Source: Longimicrobium sp. (lineage in GTDB: Bacteria > Gemmatimonadota > Gemmatimonadetes > Longimicrobiales > Longimicrobiaceae). From it: a stretch of 64,000 nt of DNA. Below, one piece after another: positions 55,058 through 64,000 of this stretch. Under the pieces are notes generated by a model, which was not told the origin of the DNA, made no database searches, and saw only the letters and a list, made by a program, of their open reading frames with translations. The stretch covers positions 62,001-126,000 of the forward strand of contig DASVTZ010000203.1 in NCBI GenBank assembly GCA_036387335.1. The letters are read 5' to 3'. Each line of letters begins with the position of its first letter. The stretch's first letter is position 1. Both the position numbers and the translations under genes were made by a program.

Positions 55058-58000
55058 CTACGCGCGCAGGCGGACGCCGGTGCTTCCTTCGCCGATGATG
55101 CCTTCGGCGAGGAGGGCGTCGAGGGCGGCGCCGACGGCTTCTTCCAGGCGTGGGCCGGTGCGGCTGAAGCCCAGGAGGCCGCACACCTCACTCGCCAGCT
55201 CGCGGCGCGGAAGGCCGTCGCCGGTGCGCAGGACGGCAAGGATGGCTTCGCGATACTCCTCCGGCGCGATCCGCTCGGCGGGGATGCGGGTGCCGGCGCG
55301 CGAGCGAACCGTCACCGCGCCGTCCGCGCCCCACACGAAGTCGCCACGCAACTGCACGCGGCCCGCGCGTTCGGCCGCGGAGAGTGCGTCCATCACCCGC
55401 GCCACCATCCGGCTCCCGGCGCGCGGGACGTCCCACATCGCCGCGACGCGGGATACGAGGTCGTCCACGTGCAGCGGCGCCTCGGCTTCGGTAACGTCGG
55501 CGATGGCGCTCAGCAGCTCGTCGTCGCGGGCGGCGGCGAGCTCGGAGCCGGTGTGGCGCGGGGTGGTGTCCGCCATCGTGTAAGGCGTGGCGGCGAGGCT
55601 GGAGGGGGCCTCGCCGTCGTTCTGAGGCGCATCGTCATCGGGGGCCACTGCCTGCGTGTTCTCCTCGGGGGCGGAGACGATGCGGTCGACCTGCACCTGC
55701 GCGGGGGCGGTGCGGGCACGGGCGCGCGATTCCTCCACCTTGCGCAGGATGCGCTCGATCTGCCCCTCACGGTCCTTGAACCAGTCGGTGGACCAGATGC
55801 GGTGGATCTCCCAGCCACGCCGCTCGAGGACCTGCTGGCGGAGGCGGTCGCGGTCGCGCGCGGTTTCGGACGAGTGGTACGCGACGCCATCGCACTCAAT
55901 TCCGCAGACGTAGCGGCCGGGCGCCTGGTCGTCGATCACGCCGAAGTCGATACGATAGCCGGCGACGCCCACCTGCGGCTGCAGGCGGAGGCCCCGCTGC
56001 GTCAGCTCGGCGAGCACCTCGCGCTCAAAGGGCGAATCGGTGTCCGCGGCGGCGCTGGCGGTGGCGCTGTCGAGGCGGCCATGCTCGGCGTACAGGAGGA
56101 ACTCGCGCAGGAGGGCGGCGCCGCGGGAGGTGGTGGCGGCGGGGTTGATGTCGTCACCGCGCATGGAGGCGAAGACCACCATCCGCTGGCGCGCGCGGGT
56201 GGTGAGGACGTTCAGGCGCCGCCAGCCGTTCTCGCCGTTGATGGGGCCGAAGTTGTGGCGCAGCTTCCCATCGCGCCCGCGGGCGTAGGTTACGCTCAGC
56301 AGGATGACGTCGCGCTCGTCGCCCTGGATGTTCTCCAGGTTCTTGACGAAGAAGGGTTCGGTGTTGCTGCGCGCGAAGAAGGCCTCCAGCGACAGGTCTT
56401 CGCGGCGGCGCAGCTCCAGCTCATCCTGGATGGCGAGCTGCTGGCGAAGGTTGAAGGTGCCGACGCCCAGCGACAGATCGGGCGTCTCGCGGGCATGGCG
56501 CACCACCTCGTCGGCCACGCGACGCGCCTCCACCAGGTTCAGCCCCTTTCCCTCGTAGACGCCGTCCGCCACGAACTCGAACACCAGCCCGGCGGAGTGC
56601 GTCGCCGTTTCCACGCTGGGAAAGGTGTGCAGCTCCGCGTCGTAGAACGAGACGTTGGAGAAGGTGATCAGCGACTCGTGCGTGCTGCGGTAGTGCCAGC
56701 GCAGGCGCGTGCGCGGGACGCCCGCGCCCATGAACTCCTCCAGCACGCTCTCCGTGTCTTCCAGGACCGGGGTGCCGTCGTCGGCCACGGGTGCCTCCGC
56801 CTGGCCGGACATCACGGCGAAGAAGTTGGTCGGAGGCAACTGCTTGGGATCGCCCACCACCACCAACTGCGCGCCGCGGACGATGGCGCCCACCGCGTCT
56901 TCGGAGGGGAGCTGGCTGGCCTCGTCAAAGATCACCAGGTCGAAGGAGGGGCGGTCGCCGTCCAGGAGCTGCGCCACGGTGAGCGGGCTCATCATGAAAC
57001 ACGGCTTGATGGCGCGGATGGCGGCGCCGGCCGAGCGCAGCGTCTTGCGCAGCGGCGCGTGGCGGCGCTCCTTGGCCATCTCGCGCTGGAGGAAGGGCAT
57101 CCCCTCGCGCGCGTCCGGCTCGCGGAGGCGCGCCTGCACCGCCTCGCGCATGCGGCCGATGAGCGCATCGCGGTTCTCGCGCAGCACCGCCTCGTCCAGC
57201 GCGCGGAACTCGGCGGCGCGCTGCTCGTGGGTGAGTGTCGCGAACTGGCGCAGCGGCTCGCGCTCCGCGACCGCGGCGGCCGTCCACTTCGCGTGGAAGG
57301 CGCGGCGGAATGCACGCGCGAGCTCCGCCCACGCCACCTCCCCCGCGAGCGCCGGGGCGACCAGTTCCCCCGCGACGCCGGCGGCTACGCGCTGCCTCAC
57401 CATCTCGAACGCAGCCCAGCGCGGCGCCAGCCCCGCGCCTTCGTCCAGGGCCGCGGCGCGCGCGATCAGCTCCTCCAGCGGCGCACCGGCCAGATAGTCG
57501 AGCGGCCACTCCGCCCGTACGCGCAGCCCCGCCAGCGCCTGGCGCGCCCCCTCCGCCGCCCGCGCGAGCGCCTGCGAGAGCGAGATGTCGGGGGCCACGC
57601 GGGATGCCAGCTCGGCGGCCTTTTCATCGAGCCCGTGCGCCACGCACACGCCGCGGAACTCCACCACCCAGCGCACGTACCCCTCCAGCGCCTCCCAATC
57701 CGACTCCTCGCCGTTCCACAGCGCGCCAAAGAGCTGCCGTCCGTTTGCGTCGCCCGACGCAAGCGCGGCACGCTCGCGCCGCAGCTCGTCCGACTTCCGC
57801 ATCTCGTCCGCCTGCTCCAGCAGCGTGGCCGTGTAGCCGGGGAGACGCAGGGCGAGCCAGCGCCGCTTGAGCATGCGGTGCCGCCCGCTGAGGAAGTTCA
57901 GGAAGCGGAAGGGGGAGCTTTCCTTCGCCTCCATGAACGCGGCGTCGTCCGCGTGCTCCTGCGAGAGCACGTCCGACCCGAGGCGCGAAAGGACCCGTTC

Positions 58001-59845
58001 GCGCAGCTCCTTGACCCGCCTGCCGAGCGCCGCCAGCTCCAGCGCCTCTCGCGGCGGGGCGTTCCAGGCGTCGCTGCGCAGCACCGCCAACGGCGCGCCC
58101 GGCGAGCGCCCGACCACGGCGGCCACGCGCACCGCCGTGTCCACGTCCGAGAGCGTCTTGACGGGTGGGAGACCGAAGCCGGCCGCCACTTCGCCCGCGA
58201 GCCGTGCCGCCTCGGCCAGGTGCGCGCGCAGCTCGCGGATCAGGGCGCGCGCGGATTCCATGTCATCCTCCGGCCAGAAGGTGCGCGCCGAGTCGCGCCA
58301 GGGGTGGCGCGCGGGGTCGCCCGTCTCGGCGGCGGCGCGGGCGAGCTCCTCCAGATCGCGCACGGCCGCGTCCAGCTCCTCGCGCGTCACGTTCTCAATC
58401 GGGCGTTCCAGGCGCACGCGGGGCGCATCCTTCAACGCCAGCAGCTCGCCGAAGCCGCGGAACGGGGTGAAGCCCGCCGCGCCGAACGGGGCGTGCACCG
58501 CATCCGCGTACGCCGTCAGCGCGCCGCGCACCGCGGGGAGGCGCGCGGCGGCGCCCTCGGGCGGGCGCGGGCGCTGGAGCGATGCGTCGACGGCGCGCGC
58601 GATCTCCTTCACCACCGCGCGCTTGTTCGCCTTGCCGGAGTGCAGCTCGAGGCAGAACTCGCCCAGCCCCGCGCGCACCAGCCGCTCGTGCACCACGGAG
58701 AGCGCGGCCATCTTCTCGGCCACGAAGAGAACCGACCGCCCGTCCGCCAGCGCCTGGGCAATCAGGTTGGTGATCGTCTGCGACTTCCCCGTCCCCGGCG
58801 GGCCCTCGAGCACCAGGTCGTGCCCGCGCGCCACCGCCGCGATCGCGCGAAGCTGGCTTCCGTCCGCGTCGACCACCTGCGCCGTGCGCTCGGGCGGGAA
58901 GTCGGCGTCGAGCTGCATGGTGCGCACGTCGTCCGGGAGCTGCGACAGGTCGCCGCCCTTGCGTGTGACGAGCTGCCGCACGAGCCGGTGCGTGCCGAAC
59001 GCGGTGCCGTTCGCCTCCAGGTCCTTGTACATCACGAACTTCTGGAAGGCGAAGAGGCCCAGGTACACCTCCGTCGTCACCTGCCACCCCGCCTGCCCCT
59101 TCACCGCCTCCGTCACCGCCTGGAAGAACCCCTGGAGGTCGTAGTCGTCCGCGATGGTGGCAGCGTCGGGGAGCTCGGGGAGGACCACGCCGAAGTCGCG
59201 GCGCAGGTGCTCGGCGAGGGCGGGGTTGACGATGGGATCGTCATCCGTGGCCGTCACCGTGTACCCGGCGGCCGCCGAGGAGCGCTTCAAAGCGACCGGC
59301 AGCAGCACGAGCGGCGCGCGCAGCGTCTGGTCCGAATCGGCGGACTCGCGGTAGTGCAGCATCCCGAGCGCCATGAAGAGCGTGTTGACCCCCTGCTCCT
59401 CCTGCGTTTCGATGGCCTGCGCGTCGATGCGGCGGAGCGAGTGGTCCAGCTTGTCCGCGGGCGAGGTGGTCTGGAGCGTGTCGTCGCGATGCTTCTCGTG
59501 GAGCGCCGCGGCCTCGTACGGCGCGTACCCCGCCGCCTGCGGCATCGCTTCGTCGTCCGTCTCCACCCCCGCCTCCGCCACGGCGGGCTCGGGCGCGGCT
59601 TGCTGTTGGGACGCGGCGGCGGTCTCCGGTTCCGGCGCGGCGGCGCGGAAGCGCATCGGCTTCTCGGCCAGGTAGAGGCGGCGGAAGATCTCGGCCGGCT
59701 GCTCGTCCACCACGGCGATGGTGGAGACGCGCGTCATCTTGAAGTTGAGCGCGCGGTTGCGCTTGCTCAGGTCCAGCAGCTTGCGCTTCCAGTGGTCGAG
59801 CGAAGCGGCGACGCGCGCGTCGTCGGCGGCGGTGTCCGGGAGCAT
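55058..59845 (-). CDS. DUF4011 - SF1 helicase - Vsr-like nuclease - DUF3320 protein
   Basis: 1,595 residues. The N-terminal DUF4011 domain is marked by HWKRKLLDLSKRNRALNFKM. The SF1 (Upf1-like) helicase has Walker A VLEGPPGTGKSQTITNLI (about 346-362), Walker B LVIFDEASQLPSEDAVGAIV and a C-terminal domain with ILLSVTYARGRDGKLRHNFG and RLNVLTTRARQRMVVF. From about residue 1273 comes a Vsr-like (MTES_1575) PD-(D/E)XK nuclease: YRIDFGVIDD, YVCGIECDGVAYHSSETARD and GWEIHRIWSTDW. The last 150 residues include a DUF3320 wing. This architecture is known among single-gene antiphage candidates. Start at 59845; no strong ribosome site. The gene stands alone. Confidence 0.9.
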   Translation of the reverse strand: MLPDTAADDARVAASLDHWKRKLLDLSKRNRALNFKMTRVSTIAVVDEQPAEIFRRLYLAEKPMRFRAAAPEPETAAASQQQAAPEPAVAEAGVETDDEAMPQAAGYAPYEAAALHEKHRDDTLQTTSPADKLDHSLRRIDAQAIETQEEQGVNTLFMALGMLHYRESADSDQTLRAPLVLLPVALKRSSAAAGYTVTATDDDPIVNPALAEHLRRDFGVVLPELPDAATIADDYDLQGFFQAVTEAVKGQAGWQVTTEVYLGLFAFQKFVMYKDLEANGTAFGTHRLVRQLVTRKGGDLSQLPDDVRTMQLDADFPPERTAQVVDADGSQLRAIAAVARGHDLVLEGPPGTGKSQTITNLIAQALADGRSVLFVAEKMAALSVVHERLVRAGLGEFCLELHSGKANKRAVVKEIARAVDASLQRPRPPEGAAARLPAVRGALTAYADAVHAPFGAAGFTPFRGFGELLALKDAPRVRLERPIENVTREELDAAVRDLEELARAAAETGDPARHPWRDSARTFWPEDDMESARALIRELRAHLAEAARLAGEVAAGFGLPPVKTLSDVDTAVRVAAVVGRSPGAPLAVLRSDAWNAPPREALELAALGRRVKELRERVLSRLGSDVLSQEHADDAAFMEAKESSPFRFLNFLSGRHRMLKRRWLALRLPGYTATLLEQADEMRKSDELRRERAALASGDANGRQLFGALWNGEESDWEALEGYVRWVVEFRGVCVAHGLDEKAAELASRVAPDISLSQALARAAEGARQALAGLRVRAEWPLDYLAGAPLEELIARAAALDEGAGLAPRWAAFEMVRQRVAAGVAGELVAPALAGEVAWAELARAFRRAFHAKWTAAAVAEREPLRQFATLTHEQRAAEFRALDEAVLRENRDALIGRMREAVQARLREPDAREGMPFLQREMAKERRHAPLRKTLRSAGAAIRAIKPCFMMSPLTVAQLLDGDRPSFDLVIFDEASQLPSEDAVGAIVRGAQLVVVGDPKQLPPTNFFAVMSGQAEAPVADDGTPVLEDTESVLEEFMGAGVPRTRLRWHYRSTHESLITFSNVSFYDAELHTFPSVETATHSAGLVFEFVADGVYEGKGLNLVEARRVADEVVRHARETPDLSLGVGTFNLRQQLAIQDELELRRREDLSLEAFFARSNTEPFFVKNLENIQGDERDVILLSVTYARGRDGKLRHNFGPINGENGWRRLNVLTTRARQRMVVFASMRGDDINPAATTSRGAALLREFLLYAEHGRLDSATASAAADTDSPFEREVLAELTQRGLRLQPQVGVAGYRIDFGVIDDQAPGRYVCGIECDGVAYHSSETARDRDRLRQQVLERRGWEIHRIWSTDWFKDREGQIERILRKVEESRARARTAPAQVQVDRIVSAPEENTQAVAPDDDAPQNDGEAPSSLAATPYTMADTTPRHTGSELAAARDDELLSAIADVTEAEAPLHVDDLVSRVAAMWDVPRAGSRMVARVMDALSAAERAGRVQLRGDFVWGADGAVTVRSRAGTRIPAERIAPEEYREAILAVLRTGDGLPRRELASEVCGLLGFSRTGPRLEEAVGAALDALLAEGIIGEGSTGVRLRA

Positions 59846-60463: not shown

Positions 60464-61987
60464 ATGTACAAGCCCTTGATCACTGTTCTGGCCCTCGCCG
60501 CGCTGGCCGCGTGCGGCGGCGGCGGGGCGGCCACGACGCCGTCGGAGAACGGGTCCGGCAACGGAGGCGAGATCACCGCCCCCGCCGGACTCACCCTGAG
60601 CCACACCACCGCCAGCGTCACCGCGGGCGGCACCCTGCAGCTATCCGCCACACCCGTGAACGCTTCGGGGACGGCGATGAGCGGGCTCCCGGCGCCCACC
60701 TGGACGAGCAGCGACGCCGCCGTGGCCACGGTCAGCGGCAGCGGTGTGGTGTCCGGCGTGGGAGCGGGGACGGCCACGATTACGGCCTCCCTCACCGCCG
60801 CGGGGGCCACGCGCACCGCCGGCGTGCAGGTGACGGTTACGCGGCCGGCGGGCGCCACCTTCGCCTCGCTCGCACTGTCGCCCGCATCGGGCGCGGTGGC
60901 GGCGGGGTCGACGCTGCCCCTGACGGCCACCCCGCGCGACGGGAGCGGCCAGGCGATGACGGGACTGCCGGCCGCCACGTTCAGCACCAGCAACGCATCG
61001 GTGGCCACGGTGAGCCCCGCGGGCGTCGTCACCGGCGTGGCGGCGGGGACGGCGGCGATCACGGCATCGCTCACCTCGGGCGGGGTCACGCAGACGGCGA
61101 CGGCCACCATCACCGTCACCGCGAGCGCGCCACCTCCGGGCGGCGGCGGAAGCAGCAGCGCGACGGTCCGCGGACTGGAGCACGCCTTCTCACCCGCCAG
61201 CGTCACCATCACCCCGGGCGGCACGGTGACGTGGACGATGGTGGACGACGAGCACGACGTCACCTGGACGGGCACGGCGCCTCCGGGGGGCAACATCCCC
61301 AAGATGGACGAGGGACAGTCCGTCACGCGCACGTTCCCCGCGGCGGGCAGCTACACGTACCGCTGCGCGCGCCACGAGAACCACAACGAGACGGGCACCG
61401 TCATCGTGCAGGGCGGCGCGTCGGCGGCGGTGTTCACCTCCGTGTCCGTGGTGCCGGGCGCGCCGAGCGTGGCCGCGGGATCCACCGCCCAGCTCCTGGC
61501 GACCCCGCTCGACCAGAACGGCCAGCCGATGTCCGGCCTGCCAGCGGCCACCTGGACCACCAGCGACGCCACACGCGCCACCGTCAGCGGCACGGGCCTG
61601 GTCACGGGCGTGGCGGCGGGGAGCGCGACGATCACCGCCTCTATCACCTCCGGCGGCGTCACGCGCACGGGCTCGACGACTGTGACCGTGACCACGGGTG
61701 GGGGCACGACACCGCCGCCTCCGCCGCCGGGCAGCTCGTCGGCGACGGTCACCACGCCGGGCGAGACGTTCGCGCCGCAGACGGTCACCATCACGGCGGG
61801 CGGCACGGTGACGTGGCAGATCAGCGGGGCCACGCACAACGTCACCTTCAGCGGCGCGGCGCCCACGGGAGGCAACATCCCCGACACCCGCAGCGGCAAC
61901 GTCGCGCGCCAGTTCACCACCGCGGGAAGCTACGACTACCAGTGCACCCGTCACGCGGGCATGCAGGGGCGCGTCGTCGTCCAGTGA
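60464..61987 (+). CDS. Lipoprotein with bacterial Ig-like and two cupredoxin domains
   Basis: 507 residues; AAGGGA precedes the ATG, and the signal ends ALAACGGGG, a lipobox. Layout: two BID_2-type Ig-like repeats (LSATPVNASGTAMSGLPAPT, TWTSSDAAVATVSGSGVV; then a near copy), cupredoxin 1 (about 235-320: AFSPASVTITPGGTVTWTM, EHDVTW, YTYRCARHENHNE), a third Ig-like repeat, and cupredoxin 2 (about 430-507: THNVTFSG, YDYQCTRHAGMQGRVVV). Domain 2 has the complete His-Cys-His-Met type 1 copper site; in domain 1 the Met is absent. It is probably a surface-anchored electron carrier or copper-binding protein, and the first of a cupredoxin operon. Confidence 0.88.
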   Translation: MYKPLITVLALAALAACGGGGAATTPSENGSGNGGEITAPAGLTLSHTTASVTAGGTLQLSATPVNASGTAMSGLPAPTWTSSDAAVATVSGSGVVSGVGAGTATITASLTAAGATRTAGVQVTVTRPAGATFASLALSPASGAVAAGSTLPLTATPRDGSGQAMTGLPAATFSTSNASVATVSPAGVVTGVAAGTAAITASLTSGGVTQTATATITVTASAPPPGGGGSSSATVRGLEHAFSPASVTITPGGTVTWTMVDDEHDVTWTGTAPPGGNIPKMDEGQSVTRTFPAAGSYTYRCARHENHNETGTVIVQGGASAAVFTSVSVVPGAPSVAAGSTAQLLATPLDQNGQPMSGLPAATWTTSDATRATVSGTGLVTGVAAGSATITASITSGGVTRTGSTTVTVTTGGGTTPPPPPPGSSSATVTTPGETFAPQTVTITAGGTVTWQISGATHNVTFSGAAPTGGNIPDTRSGNVARQFTTAGSYDYQCTRHAGMQGRVVVQ

Positions 61988-62022
61988 CGCGTCCAACCAC
62001 ACTCATCGAACGGAGCCATACC

Positions 62023-62436
62023 ATGCGCAAAACGACCATCCTCGCGGCGCTCGTCCTCGCCATCGCCCCCTTCGCCGTCCGCGCGTCGGCGGACACGCCT
62101 CCCACCACGCACGAGGTGAAGATGGTGATGGTGGGGAGCACCGCCCGCTTCGAGCCGGCGAGCCTCACCATCAAGGCCGGCGACCGGGTTCGCTTCGTCA
62201 ACGCCAGCGGCGGCCCGCACAACGTCTCCTTCGATCCGGCCAAGGTGCCGGACGACGCCGAGCGCGCCCTCTCGGCCGGGATGCCGGCGCAGATCCAGGC
62301 GCTCTGGGGGCCGCTGGTCACCGAAGCCAACGGCGCCTACACCGTCAGCTTCGCCGGGGTGAAGCCGGGCCGCTACGAGTTCTTTTGCATGCCGCACATG
62401 GCGATGGGGATGAAGGGAGTCCTCACCGTCCAGTAG
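62023..62436 (+). CDS. Secreted plastocyanin-like protein
   Basis: 137 residues with CGGAG upstream of the ATG and a Sec signal (MRKTTILAALVLAIAPFAVR, cleavage after ASA). The mature protein is one cupredoxin domain: FEPASLTIKAGDRVRFVNAS, GPHNVSFDP and FFCMPHMAMGMKGVLTV, giving His, Cys, His and Met ligands. It would be a soluble periplasmic electron shuttle, 36 bases downstream of the multi-domain lipoprotein. Confidence 0.92.
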   Translation: MRKTTILAALVLAIAPFAVRASADTPPTTHEVKMVMVGSTARFEPASLTIKAGDRVRFVNASGGPHNVSFDPAKVPDDAERALSAGMPAQIQALWGPLVTEANGAYTVSFAGVKPGRYEFFCMPHMAMGMKGVLTVQ

Positions 62437-62496
62437 ACGCGAACGGGCGGCGTGCATCCGCGCGCCGCCCGCCGCCCAACGCACCGGAGCCCGATC

Positions 62497-63600
62497 GTGC
62501 CGAAGCCCATCCCAGCCGCCGCCCTCATCCTTCTCGCGCTCAGCGCCCCCGCGGCGCACGCCCAGTCGCTGCTGGACCGTTCGCCCAACGTGACGGGGGG
62601 ATGGGTGGGGAACAGCGGTCAGCTGTACTTCCACTTCATGCACCGCTTCACCGCGAGCTCGGCGCCGGAGCGCAAGGTGATCAACGTCCCCACCTTTACG
62701 GTGGCGGCGGGGCTCCCCATGCGCACCCTGGTGGGTGCCCACTACGCCACCAACTCGCAGCTCGCGCCGCGCTATCCCAACGAGTGGGAGCTGTGGGCGC
62801 GCCACGCCTTCTTCGCGCAGGATGCCGGCTCGCCCGCCGACGTCGCGGCGCAGGTCGCCTACAACCTCGCCGCCGCGGGTGTGGACGGCGAAGTGACGCT
62901 GGCCCGGCGCCAGGGCCCCGTTCGCCTGATGACCGCCGCCCGCGTCCTTTCCGATCCGCTCATCGCGGGGCAGACGCGCTTCGCCGTGGCGGGCGGCGGA
63001 ACGCTGCGCATCTCGCGCTACCTCGCCCTCGCCGGCGACGTGGCGACGCTGATGGACCGCACGCCGGAGGAGCGGATGGCGTGGAGCGCGGGGCTGCACG
63101 TCGCCCTCCCGCACACGCCGCACACGCTCTCGCTGCAGGCTGCCAACACCAACGCGTACACCCTGCAGGGCTCGTCGCGCGGGGAGAAGGAGATCCGCTA
63201 CGGCTTCGAGTTCACCATCCCGGTGACGCTGGCGCGCTGGTTCGGCGGTGGCGGCGCGCAGCCGGCCGCGCCCGAGCACCCCGCGCCCGCTGCTCCCACC
63301 GCCGCTCCCGCCACGGCGCCACCCGCGTCCCCCTCCGCTCCCGCCACGGGACCGGTGTTCAAGGCCGGGATGCGCAACCTGGCCTTCGTCCCCGCGCGCA
63401 TCGAGATCGCGGCGGGGACGACGGTGGAGTGGACGAACAGCGACGCGCTGGCGCACACGGTGACGGCGGTGGACCGCTCGTTCGACTCGGGGCTGATCGA
63501 GCCGGGGCGGGTGTGGCGGCACACTTTCACCGCGCCGGGCACCTACAACTTCCAGTGCACCCCGCACCCGTTCATGAAGGGAGTGGTGATCGTCAAATGA
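62497..63600 (+). CDS. Outer-membrane barrel (DUF5777-like) fused to a cupredoxin domain
   Basis: 367 residues from a GTG with CGGAG eight bases upstream; signal MPKPIPAAALILLALSAPAA ends AHAQ. Residues about 20-255 resemble DUF5777-type beta-barrels (GQLYFHFMHRFTASSAPER, YEF-like strands such as EKEIRYGFEFTIPVTLARWF). A Pro/Ala linker of about 40 residues follows. The last 85 residues are a cupredoxin with NLAFVPARIEIAAGTTVEWT, ALAHTVTAVD and YNFQCTPHPFMKGVVIV: His, Cys, His and Met ligands all present. The copper domain would be displayed next to the barrel, on one side of the outer membrane. Confidence 0.85.
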   Translation: MPKPIPAAALILLALSAPAAHAQSLLDRSPNVTGGWVGNSGQLYFHFMHRFTASSAPERKVINVPTFTVAAGLPMRTLVGAHYATNSQLAPRYPNEWELWARHAFFAQDAGSPADVAAQVAYNLAAAGVDGEVTLARRQGPVRLMTAARVLSDPLIAGQTRFAVAGGGTLRISRYLALAGDVATLMDRTPEERMAWSAGLHVALPHTPHTLSLQAANTNAYTLQGSSRGEKEIRYGFEFTIPVTLARWFGGGGAQPAAPEHPAPAAPTAAPATAPPASPSAPATGPVFKAGMRNLAFVPARIEIAAGTTVEWTNSDALAHTVTAVDRSFDSGLIEPGRVWRHTFTAPGTYNFQCTPHPFMKGVVIVK

Positions 63601-63992
63601 CCATCAAATCGATCTACAGCTTCGGCTGCGCGGCCTTTGCCACGACGGTCGTGGCGGCATCGCTGGGCGGGTGCTTCTCCGAGCGGGTGGCGGGGAGCAC
63701 GGGCGGGAGCGCGGCCGAGCTTTGCGGCGGCACGCAGGCCAACGTGGTGCGCATCCGCAACTTCGCCTTCGGTCCGGGCGAGCTGCGGGTGCGCCCCGGC
63801 ACGCGCGTGATCTTCGCCAACTGCGACGGCGTCCAGCACTCCTCCACCTCCGACGCCGAGGGCGCCGAGAGCTGGGACTCGGGCCTGATCACTCCCAACA
63901 CCACCTTTGAGCACACCTTCACCGATGCCGGCCGCTTCCCCTACCACTGCGAGCCGCACCCGTCGATGAAGGGGACGATCGTGGTGGAGTGA
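63597..63992 (+). CDS. Cupredoxin lipoprotein
   Basis: 131 residues; the ATG overlaps the barrel-cupredoxin stop by four bases (ATGA). Signal ends VVAASLGGC, a lipobox. The domain has NFAFGPGELRVRPGTRVIFA, DGVQHSSTSD and FPYHCEPHPSMKGTIVV, again a full His-Cys-His-Met set. Its metal-site region closely resembles that of the fused domain in the preceding gene, so one probably arose by duplication. The gene is complete; eight bases remain before the window ends and the operon may continue. Confidence 0.9.
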   Translation: MTIKSIYSFGCAAFATTVVAASLGGCFSERVAGSTGGSAAELCGGTQANVVRIRNFAFGPGELRVRPGTRVIFANCDGVQHSSTSDAEGAESWDSGLITPNTTFEHTFTDAGRFPYHCEPHPSMKGTIVVE

Positions 63993-64000
63993 TGGCTGGG

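Follow-up and report, generated by a model that had tools for sequence, protein, structure and literature searches.

A four-gene cupredoxin operon in Longimicrobium sp. that includes a predicted outer-membrane barrel fused to a copper domain

The end of a 64,000-nucleotide stretch from the genome of a soil bacterium, Longimicrobium sp. (G000:C203:62001-126000, hereafter the window; source genome of 5.8 Mb in 265 contigs) is filled from position 60464 to 63992 by four plus-strand genes that form a cupredoxin operon, the third of which encodes a predicted outer-membrane barrel with a cupredoxin domain at its C-terminus. We propose, with a probability of about one half, that the operon provides several electron carriers of the type 1 copper kind on the periplasmic side of the outer membrane, one of them tethered to a channel. 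The original prediction, made from the letters of the window, had described five copper-binding domains in four adjacent genes, namely a multi-domain lipoprotein, a soluble plastocyanin, an outer-membrane barrel ending in a cupredoxin, and a lipoprotein. Both the count (2 + 1 + 1 + 1) and the domain make-up with its predicted placements were borne out: independent gene calls gave the same four genes, and proteins 1 to 4 passed the Pfam model Copper-bind (PF00127) at 53.3, 65.9, 47.1 and 39.8 bits, respectively, against a cut-off of 21.2. Copper binding by these proteins is predicted. The gene calls were made with our own script on contigs of metagenome-assembled genomes, and the lipoboxes, signal peptides and some gene names were assigned by eye. 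The genes are separated by 35 bases (genes 1 and 2) and 60 bases (genes 2 and 3) or overlap by 4 bases (ATGA, genes 3 and 4), and each start is preceded by a GGAG/GGAAGG-like sequence, read by eye. The titles and abstract beginnings of the searched open-licence literature name no cupredoxin-barrel fusion.

The AlphaFold2 model of the gene 3 protein, built from 26 alignment rows, has a mean predicted local distance difference test score (pLDDT) of 83.7. It shows 12 strands at residues ~42-244, a linker with a pLDDT below 50 at residues 251-275 and a confident cupredoxin at residues 287-366. Hydrophobicity alternates between inside and outside along the strands, with mean hydropathies of -0.79 and +1.93 for the two faces; as hydropathy itself was used to tell the faces apart, only the size of this gap is informative. 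With a signal peptide (by eye), an even-stranded closed barrel of 12 strands in the model and a hydrophobic outer face, the N-terminal part of the protein is predicted with good confidence to be an outer-membrane barrel, and for the operon proteins outer-membrane insertion, periplasmic side and lipidation are predictions. Structural matches of the barrel in the PDB include 12-stranded channels: VIA-align gave FapF (Z 17.8, 200 residues, 3.4 A), VhGalP (Z 17.7, 177 residues, 2.6 A), KdgM (Z 17.4) and COG4313 (Z 16.6, 195 residues, 3.6 A). The cupredoxin part matched 9cck (Z 15.1), 5fc9 (Z 14.8) and the plastocyanin 1bxu (Z 14.7), the root mean square deviation being 1.0-1.6 A for the matches of Z 14.8-15.1.

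No named family was significant when the barrel alone was searched against Pfam and NCBIfam and 14 homologues against Pfam, and a PDB sequence search with the barrel returned nothing significant (best E-value 0.22). The MtrB/PioB profile (TIGR03509) matched none of the 21 genomes of the source family, and its control profile likewise matched no genome. Across 96 barrel copies, R50, D181, W36, W196, G236 and P242 are invariant, and E96, D130, R149 and H49 are identical in 94. The inward face is not more conserved than the outward one in these copies (mean entropy 1.65 and 1.79, p 0.50).

The copper ligands of the fused domain are strongly conserved. His-Cys-His-Met is invariant in 14 of 14 and in 26 of 26 aligned rows, and the Met after C-x2-H is kept in 89 of the 90 fused domains of the census described below. 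The loop is C-x2-H-x2-M in 78 of these, C-x2-H-x4-M in 10 and C-x2-H-x3-M in one, and one domain (G362) has no Met; the 12 non-standard loops were read by eye. Judged by ligand residues, only four of the five cupredoxin sites of the operon appear to be canonical type 1 sites, because the first domain of gene 1 has no axial Met. This domain is possibly a site of different potential. The residues that replace its Met differ between the loci that hold all four genes.

Table 1. Features of the cupredoxin operon, with positions counted in the window
Feature	Position	Strand	Length (aa)	Description
Gene 1	60464..61987	+	507	Lipoprotein (AAC lipobox) with Big_2 Ig-like domains and two cupredoxin domains; Big_2 E-value 2.3e-23; Copper-bind 53.3 bits in two stretches
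Gene 1, cupredoxin domain 1	61145..61411	+		Has the ligands His, Cys and His but lacks the axial Met (C-x2-H-ENHNETG)
Gene 1, cupredoxin domain 2	61727..61984	+		Canonical C-x2-H-x2-M
Gene 2	62023..62436	+	137	Secreted plastocyanin-like protein with signal peptide and CMPHMAMGM loop; Copper-bind 65.9 bits
Gene 3	62497..63600	+	367	Fusion of barrel and cupredoxin; GTG start codon; signal peptide, with the mature protein from Q23
Gene 3, barrel	62563..63246	+		Predicted outer-membrane barrel of 12 strands; N-terminal segment conserved; remotely related to DUF5777 by profile comparison
Gene 3, linker	63247..63351	+		Pro/Ala-rich; low-confidence part of the model
Gene 3, C-terminal cupredoxin	63352..63597	+		Ligands H320, C354, H357 and M360
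Gene 4	63597..63992	+	131	Cupredoxin lipoprotein (GGC lipobox); Copper-bind 39.8 bits

The barrel was found in 15 of the 21 genomes of the source family. In a phylum-wide sample of 395 genomes it was found in 96, all belonging to the same class. For a census, loci from the phylum sample and from four more family genomes were combined (110 loci, 112 frames with a barrel hit). After 16 frames that were partial or cut by a contig end had been dropped, 96 full-length, stop-terminated copies from 88 genomes remained, and 90 of them carry a C-terminal cupredoxin, separated from the barrel by 16-123 residues (median 24, from barrel end to start of the cupredoxin match). The six without a fused cupredoxin comprise four barrel-only copies (G159b, G330a, G330b and G267) and two that are seemingly disrupted, with the cupredoxin in another frame (G247) or in a frame 141 bases downstream (G019a). 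In a quick tree of the 96 barrels rooted on 18 rows of the family DUF5777, the DUF5777 rows fall on one side and the four genuine barrel-only copies are nested among fused ones. Branch support was the Shimodaira-Hasegawa-like approximate likelihood ratio test (SH-aLRT) only, and several forks of the tree are open. Because of this nesting, the tree favours loss of the cupredoxin as the origin of the barrel-only copies, and the fusion appears to be old, since nearly all full-length copies are fused and the barrel-only ones lie within them. One barrel-only copy, G330a, is part of a gene run that also encodes a ferric-reductase-like flavoprotein and a cytochrome c (L139:5263-7806, G330).

The genes around the barrel were compared by clustering 744 proteins from 96 loci, the 30 largest clusters being named by eye from their first residues. 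A same-strand cupredoxin frame lies within 1.5 kb in 60 of the 96 loci, and on both sides in 14. The cupredoxin cluster holds 75 proteins from 50 genomes, of which 73 are on the same strand, at a median distance of 93 bases; every other neighbour cluster spans at most 15 genomes. The sole neighbour shared by many genomes is another cupredoxin gene. The other recurring clusters look like a housekeeping region of one lineage (RNase H-like and isopropylmalate dehydrogenase-like genes, named by eye), or are an AraC regulator in 10 genomes and a CHRD-like lipoprotein (by eye) in 7. No oxidase, reductase or metal pump was recognised in the 30 largest clusters. The full four-gene order was found in five genomes (G000, G013, G011, G014 and G005, the first gene being cut by a contig end in G005), which amount to fewer than five independent cases because G000 and G013 are 97% identical over the barrel. 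Two more family genomes, G012 and G007, have a three-gene form without gene 1, and outside the family the barrel gene usually stands by itself or is joined by one or two cupredoxin genes. Conservation of gene order had been proposed as a check in the original prediction: the fusion with a cupredoxin neighbour is conserved, and the complete set of four was seen in the five genomes named. In G012, two His/Met-rich secreted proteins, the second without a Pfam match, are convergent with the operon and are possibly copper-binding (L037:4869-5915).

A more distant kinship was found with DUF5777 (PF19089), a family mentioned in no paper of the searched open-licence literature. Its Pfam model matched the barrel at no E-value up to 10, gave no match at E-values up to 1 in 14 members and none in the source genome, and matched other genes in 20 of 121 genomes of the phylum. 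A profile-profile comparison of the barrel (28 rows) with DUF5777 (18 rows) was collinear over 204 columns with an E-value of 2.7e-8 and a probability of 95.2. Among the controls, reversed profiles reached E-values of 0.18 and 0.22, a set of 30 column shuffles reached 0.02 at best and a cupredoxin profile 0.11; the two halves of the DUF5777 set gave 1.5e-8 and 2.4e-9. An earlier comparison with just two DUF5777 rows had been weak (probability 5.3, E-value 0.0073). Judged by these profiles, the barrel is a remote relative of DUF5777 and shares common ancestry with it. The neighbours of DUF5777 genes were read in flanks of 1.5 kb and in a few larger loci. They include a Rieske and a DUF2231 protein in L134 (by Pfam), similar proteins in L122, L123 and L125 (judged by position and sequence start only), small CxxCH proteins in L123 and L134, and in L133 an adjoining YceI with a PSCyt1-like protein just below its cut-off. 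No cupredoxin is fused to a DUF5777 protein among the gene-called loci. On one strand of G134, genes for a DUF5777 protein, a cupredoxin and a barrel-cupredoxin fusion follow one another (L128:8599-11476).

How the operon might work can be outlined from these findings. The gene 3 protein would be a 12-stranded outer-membrane channel with its copper carrier attached by a flexible tether. This carrier may exchange single electrons with the lipoprotein carriers (genes 1 and 4) and with the soluble carrier of gene 2, which would form the link to the respiratory chain. Most likely the channel would admit or position a small redox-active substrate, and the copper domain would oxidise or reduce it at the periplasmic mouth; we infer electron transport by the copper sites as well as passage of the substrate through the channel. 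In most known cases type 1 copper domains are electron carriers. The fused domain should lie on the periplasmic side, because it follows the last strand and would be placed there by the usual topology of outer-membrane proteins; PMC8406198 states this topology and argues that the redox domain of Cyc2 faces the periplasm.

The carrier set at the periplasmic face is favoured because type 1 domains mostly carry electrons, because a carrier at the end of an outer-membrane barrel should face the periplasm, as argued for Cyc2, and because the source genome pairs cupredoxins with redox enzymes elsewhere. It encodes NirK (TIGR02376, 305.9 bits, cut-off 296.3) beside a cupredoxin lipoprotein (L010:3-2819) and a MauG/MbnH-like di-haem protein with a C-terminal cupredoxin (L012:3813-5504), along with three strong haem-copper oxidase matches. 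The canonical ligand set of the fused domain, the age of the fusion and the recurring cupredoxin neighbour also speak for this reading, as do the proximity of several DUF5777 genes of the phylum to one-electron carriers (Rieske, CxxCH and YceI/PSCyt1-like proteins) and the gene row in G134. Several observations weigh against it. No redox enzyme was recognised by eye as a recurring neighbour of the fusion in the 30 largest clusters, and a CxxCH protein was found within 2 kb at just 7 places. The surroundings of DUF5777 genes vary, those in L111-L114 and L116-L118 having unrelated neighbours. The first domain of gene 1 lacks its axial Met in all five four-gene loci, and in G016 and G009 the barrel gene survives only as fragments with stops, so that it seems dispensable in some relatives. 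As to the NirK locus, a short COX1-like protein is found further on from it.

Copper trafficking is unlikely on balance. In this reading copper would cross the channel in either direction, and the tethered cupredoxin would bind it and hand it to the cupredoxin lipoproteins for periplasmic acquisition, storage or export. Transfer of copper between paired cupredoxins does occur, as between CupA and CopA of S. pneumoniae (PMC7558416), which makes this a serious rival. It would fit recurring partners that are copper proteins only, and a gene 1 domain without the Met typical of electron carriers. The other sites, however, are full type 1 sites of the kind generally known from electron transfer, and the recurring neighbours, named by eye in clusters of at least 4 genomes, include no recognisable copper ATPase, Cus-type pump or multicopper oxidase. 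CopB/PcoB (PF05275) matched neither the barrel proteins (P0001/P0002) nor any of the 21 family genomes, while the control was matched in Caulobacter vibrioides, and the conserved charged residues of the barrel are Arg, Asp and Glu, with no cluster of Met or Cys.

It is improbable, though it has a precedent, that the barrel is a mere anchor or general channel and that the copper domains protect against stress, for example by peroxide removal via a peroxidase. Laz, a periplasm-facing cupredoxin lipoprotein of N. gonorrhoeae, guards against peroxide and gives electrons to cytochrome c peroxidase, according to PMC6277709, and the MauG/peroxidase-like protein of the source genome has a cupredoxin of its own. 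Charged residues that hardly vary (R50, E96, D130, R149 and D181) lie on the polar face of the strands and suggest instead a specific channel, and no peroxidase was recognised among recurring neighbours. A conduit that moves electrons through the outer membrane, the strong form of the original prediction, seems very improbable. The carriers placed at the outer membrane and the analogy with Cyc2 and Mtr-type complexes (PMC8406198) would agree with it, but none of the 96 barrel segments has the haem motif CxxCH, 95 have no Cys, a 12-stranded barrel would be far too narrow for a cupredoxin and the copper domain should sit in the periplasm. An electron relay to the outer membrane is plausible, while a relay through it finds no support in a barrel that shows no redox site.

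The original prediction had also suggested continuing past position 64000 for oxidase or reductase genes. The contig runs 30 kb past the window end, and the next genes, which are convergent with the operon, encode an NtrC-type regulator and a HAMP histidine kinase; no oxidase or reductase was found downstream of the operon within reach in the source genome, in the sequence read beyond the window. Control of the operon by the adjoining regulator was considered and is not supported, because a search that allowed up to 2 mismatches to the consensus gave no sigma-54 promoter, either upstream of the operon or in nine related loci. Also beyond the window is a row of four short low-complexity lipoprotein genes that are alike in look (L009:7741-9097). 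Upstream and divergent, at 55058-59845 (-) of the window, is a gene for a large DUF4011/AAA (helicase)/MTES_1575 nuclease/DUF3320 protein, which matches the candidate defence model PDC-S37 with 1527.8 bits. Scans of the window for tRNAs and Rfam families gave no matches.

Gemmatimonadota is a phylum with few cultured members, and the system described here is compact and widely conserved in its class. We tentatively suggest, as a possible but doubtful extension, that it is the copper-based equivalent of Cyc2, a redox channel of the outer membrane where dissolved electron donors or acceptors would meet a tethered type 1 copper at the periplasmic mouth, and that it forms one branch of a wider superfamily with DUF5777, in which every 12-stranded channel would be paired with a one-electron carrier of the periplasm, be it a cupredoxin, a small cytochrome c or a Rieske protein. 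If true, a copper-based form would join the few known redox domains that are fused to outer-membrane barrels, and the unnamed barrel family and, via homology, DUF5777 would gain a first functional lead.

Among known systems, FapF, KdgM/NanC/VhGalP and the COG4313 channels (PDB 5o68, 4fqe, 2wjq, 8xua and 4rl8) have the same barrel architecture as gene 3 but a sequence identity of 7-13%, and the shared fold shows no function for gene 3. We know of none of these channels with a cupredoxin. The purple cupredoxin and the multicopper oxidase with a C-terminal cupredoxin of Nitrosopumilus maritimus (5fc9 and 9cck) match the cupredoxin of gene 3 but have no barrel. DUF5777 shares the collinear profile with the barrel, but its Pfam model misses the barrel and its gene-called loci have no fused cupredoxin. 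Laz of Neisseria is, like the proteins of genes 1 and 4, a membrane-tethered type 1 cupredoxin, facing the periplasm in N. gonorrhoeae, but it is an azurin and is not linked to a barrel (PMC6277709). The fused cytochrome-porin Cyc2 likewise has a one-electron redox domain on an outer-membrane barrel, on the predicted periplasmic side; in Cyc2 this is an N-terminal c-type haem on 16 strands, with Fe(II) oxidation shown (PMC8406198), whereas gene 3 has a C-terminal cupredoxin on a linker, 12 strands in the model and no CxxCH, and its function is deduced.

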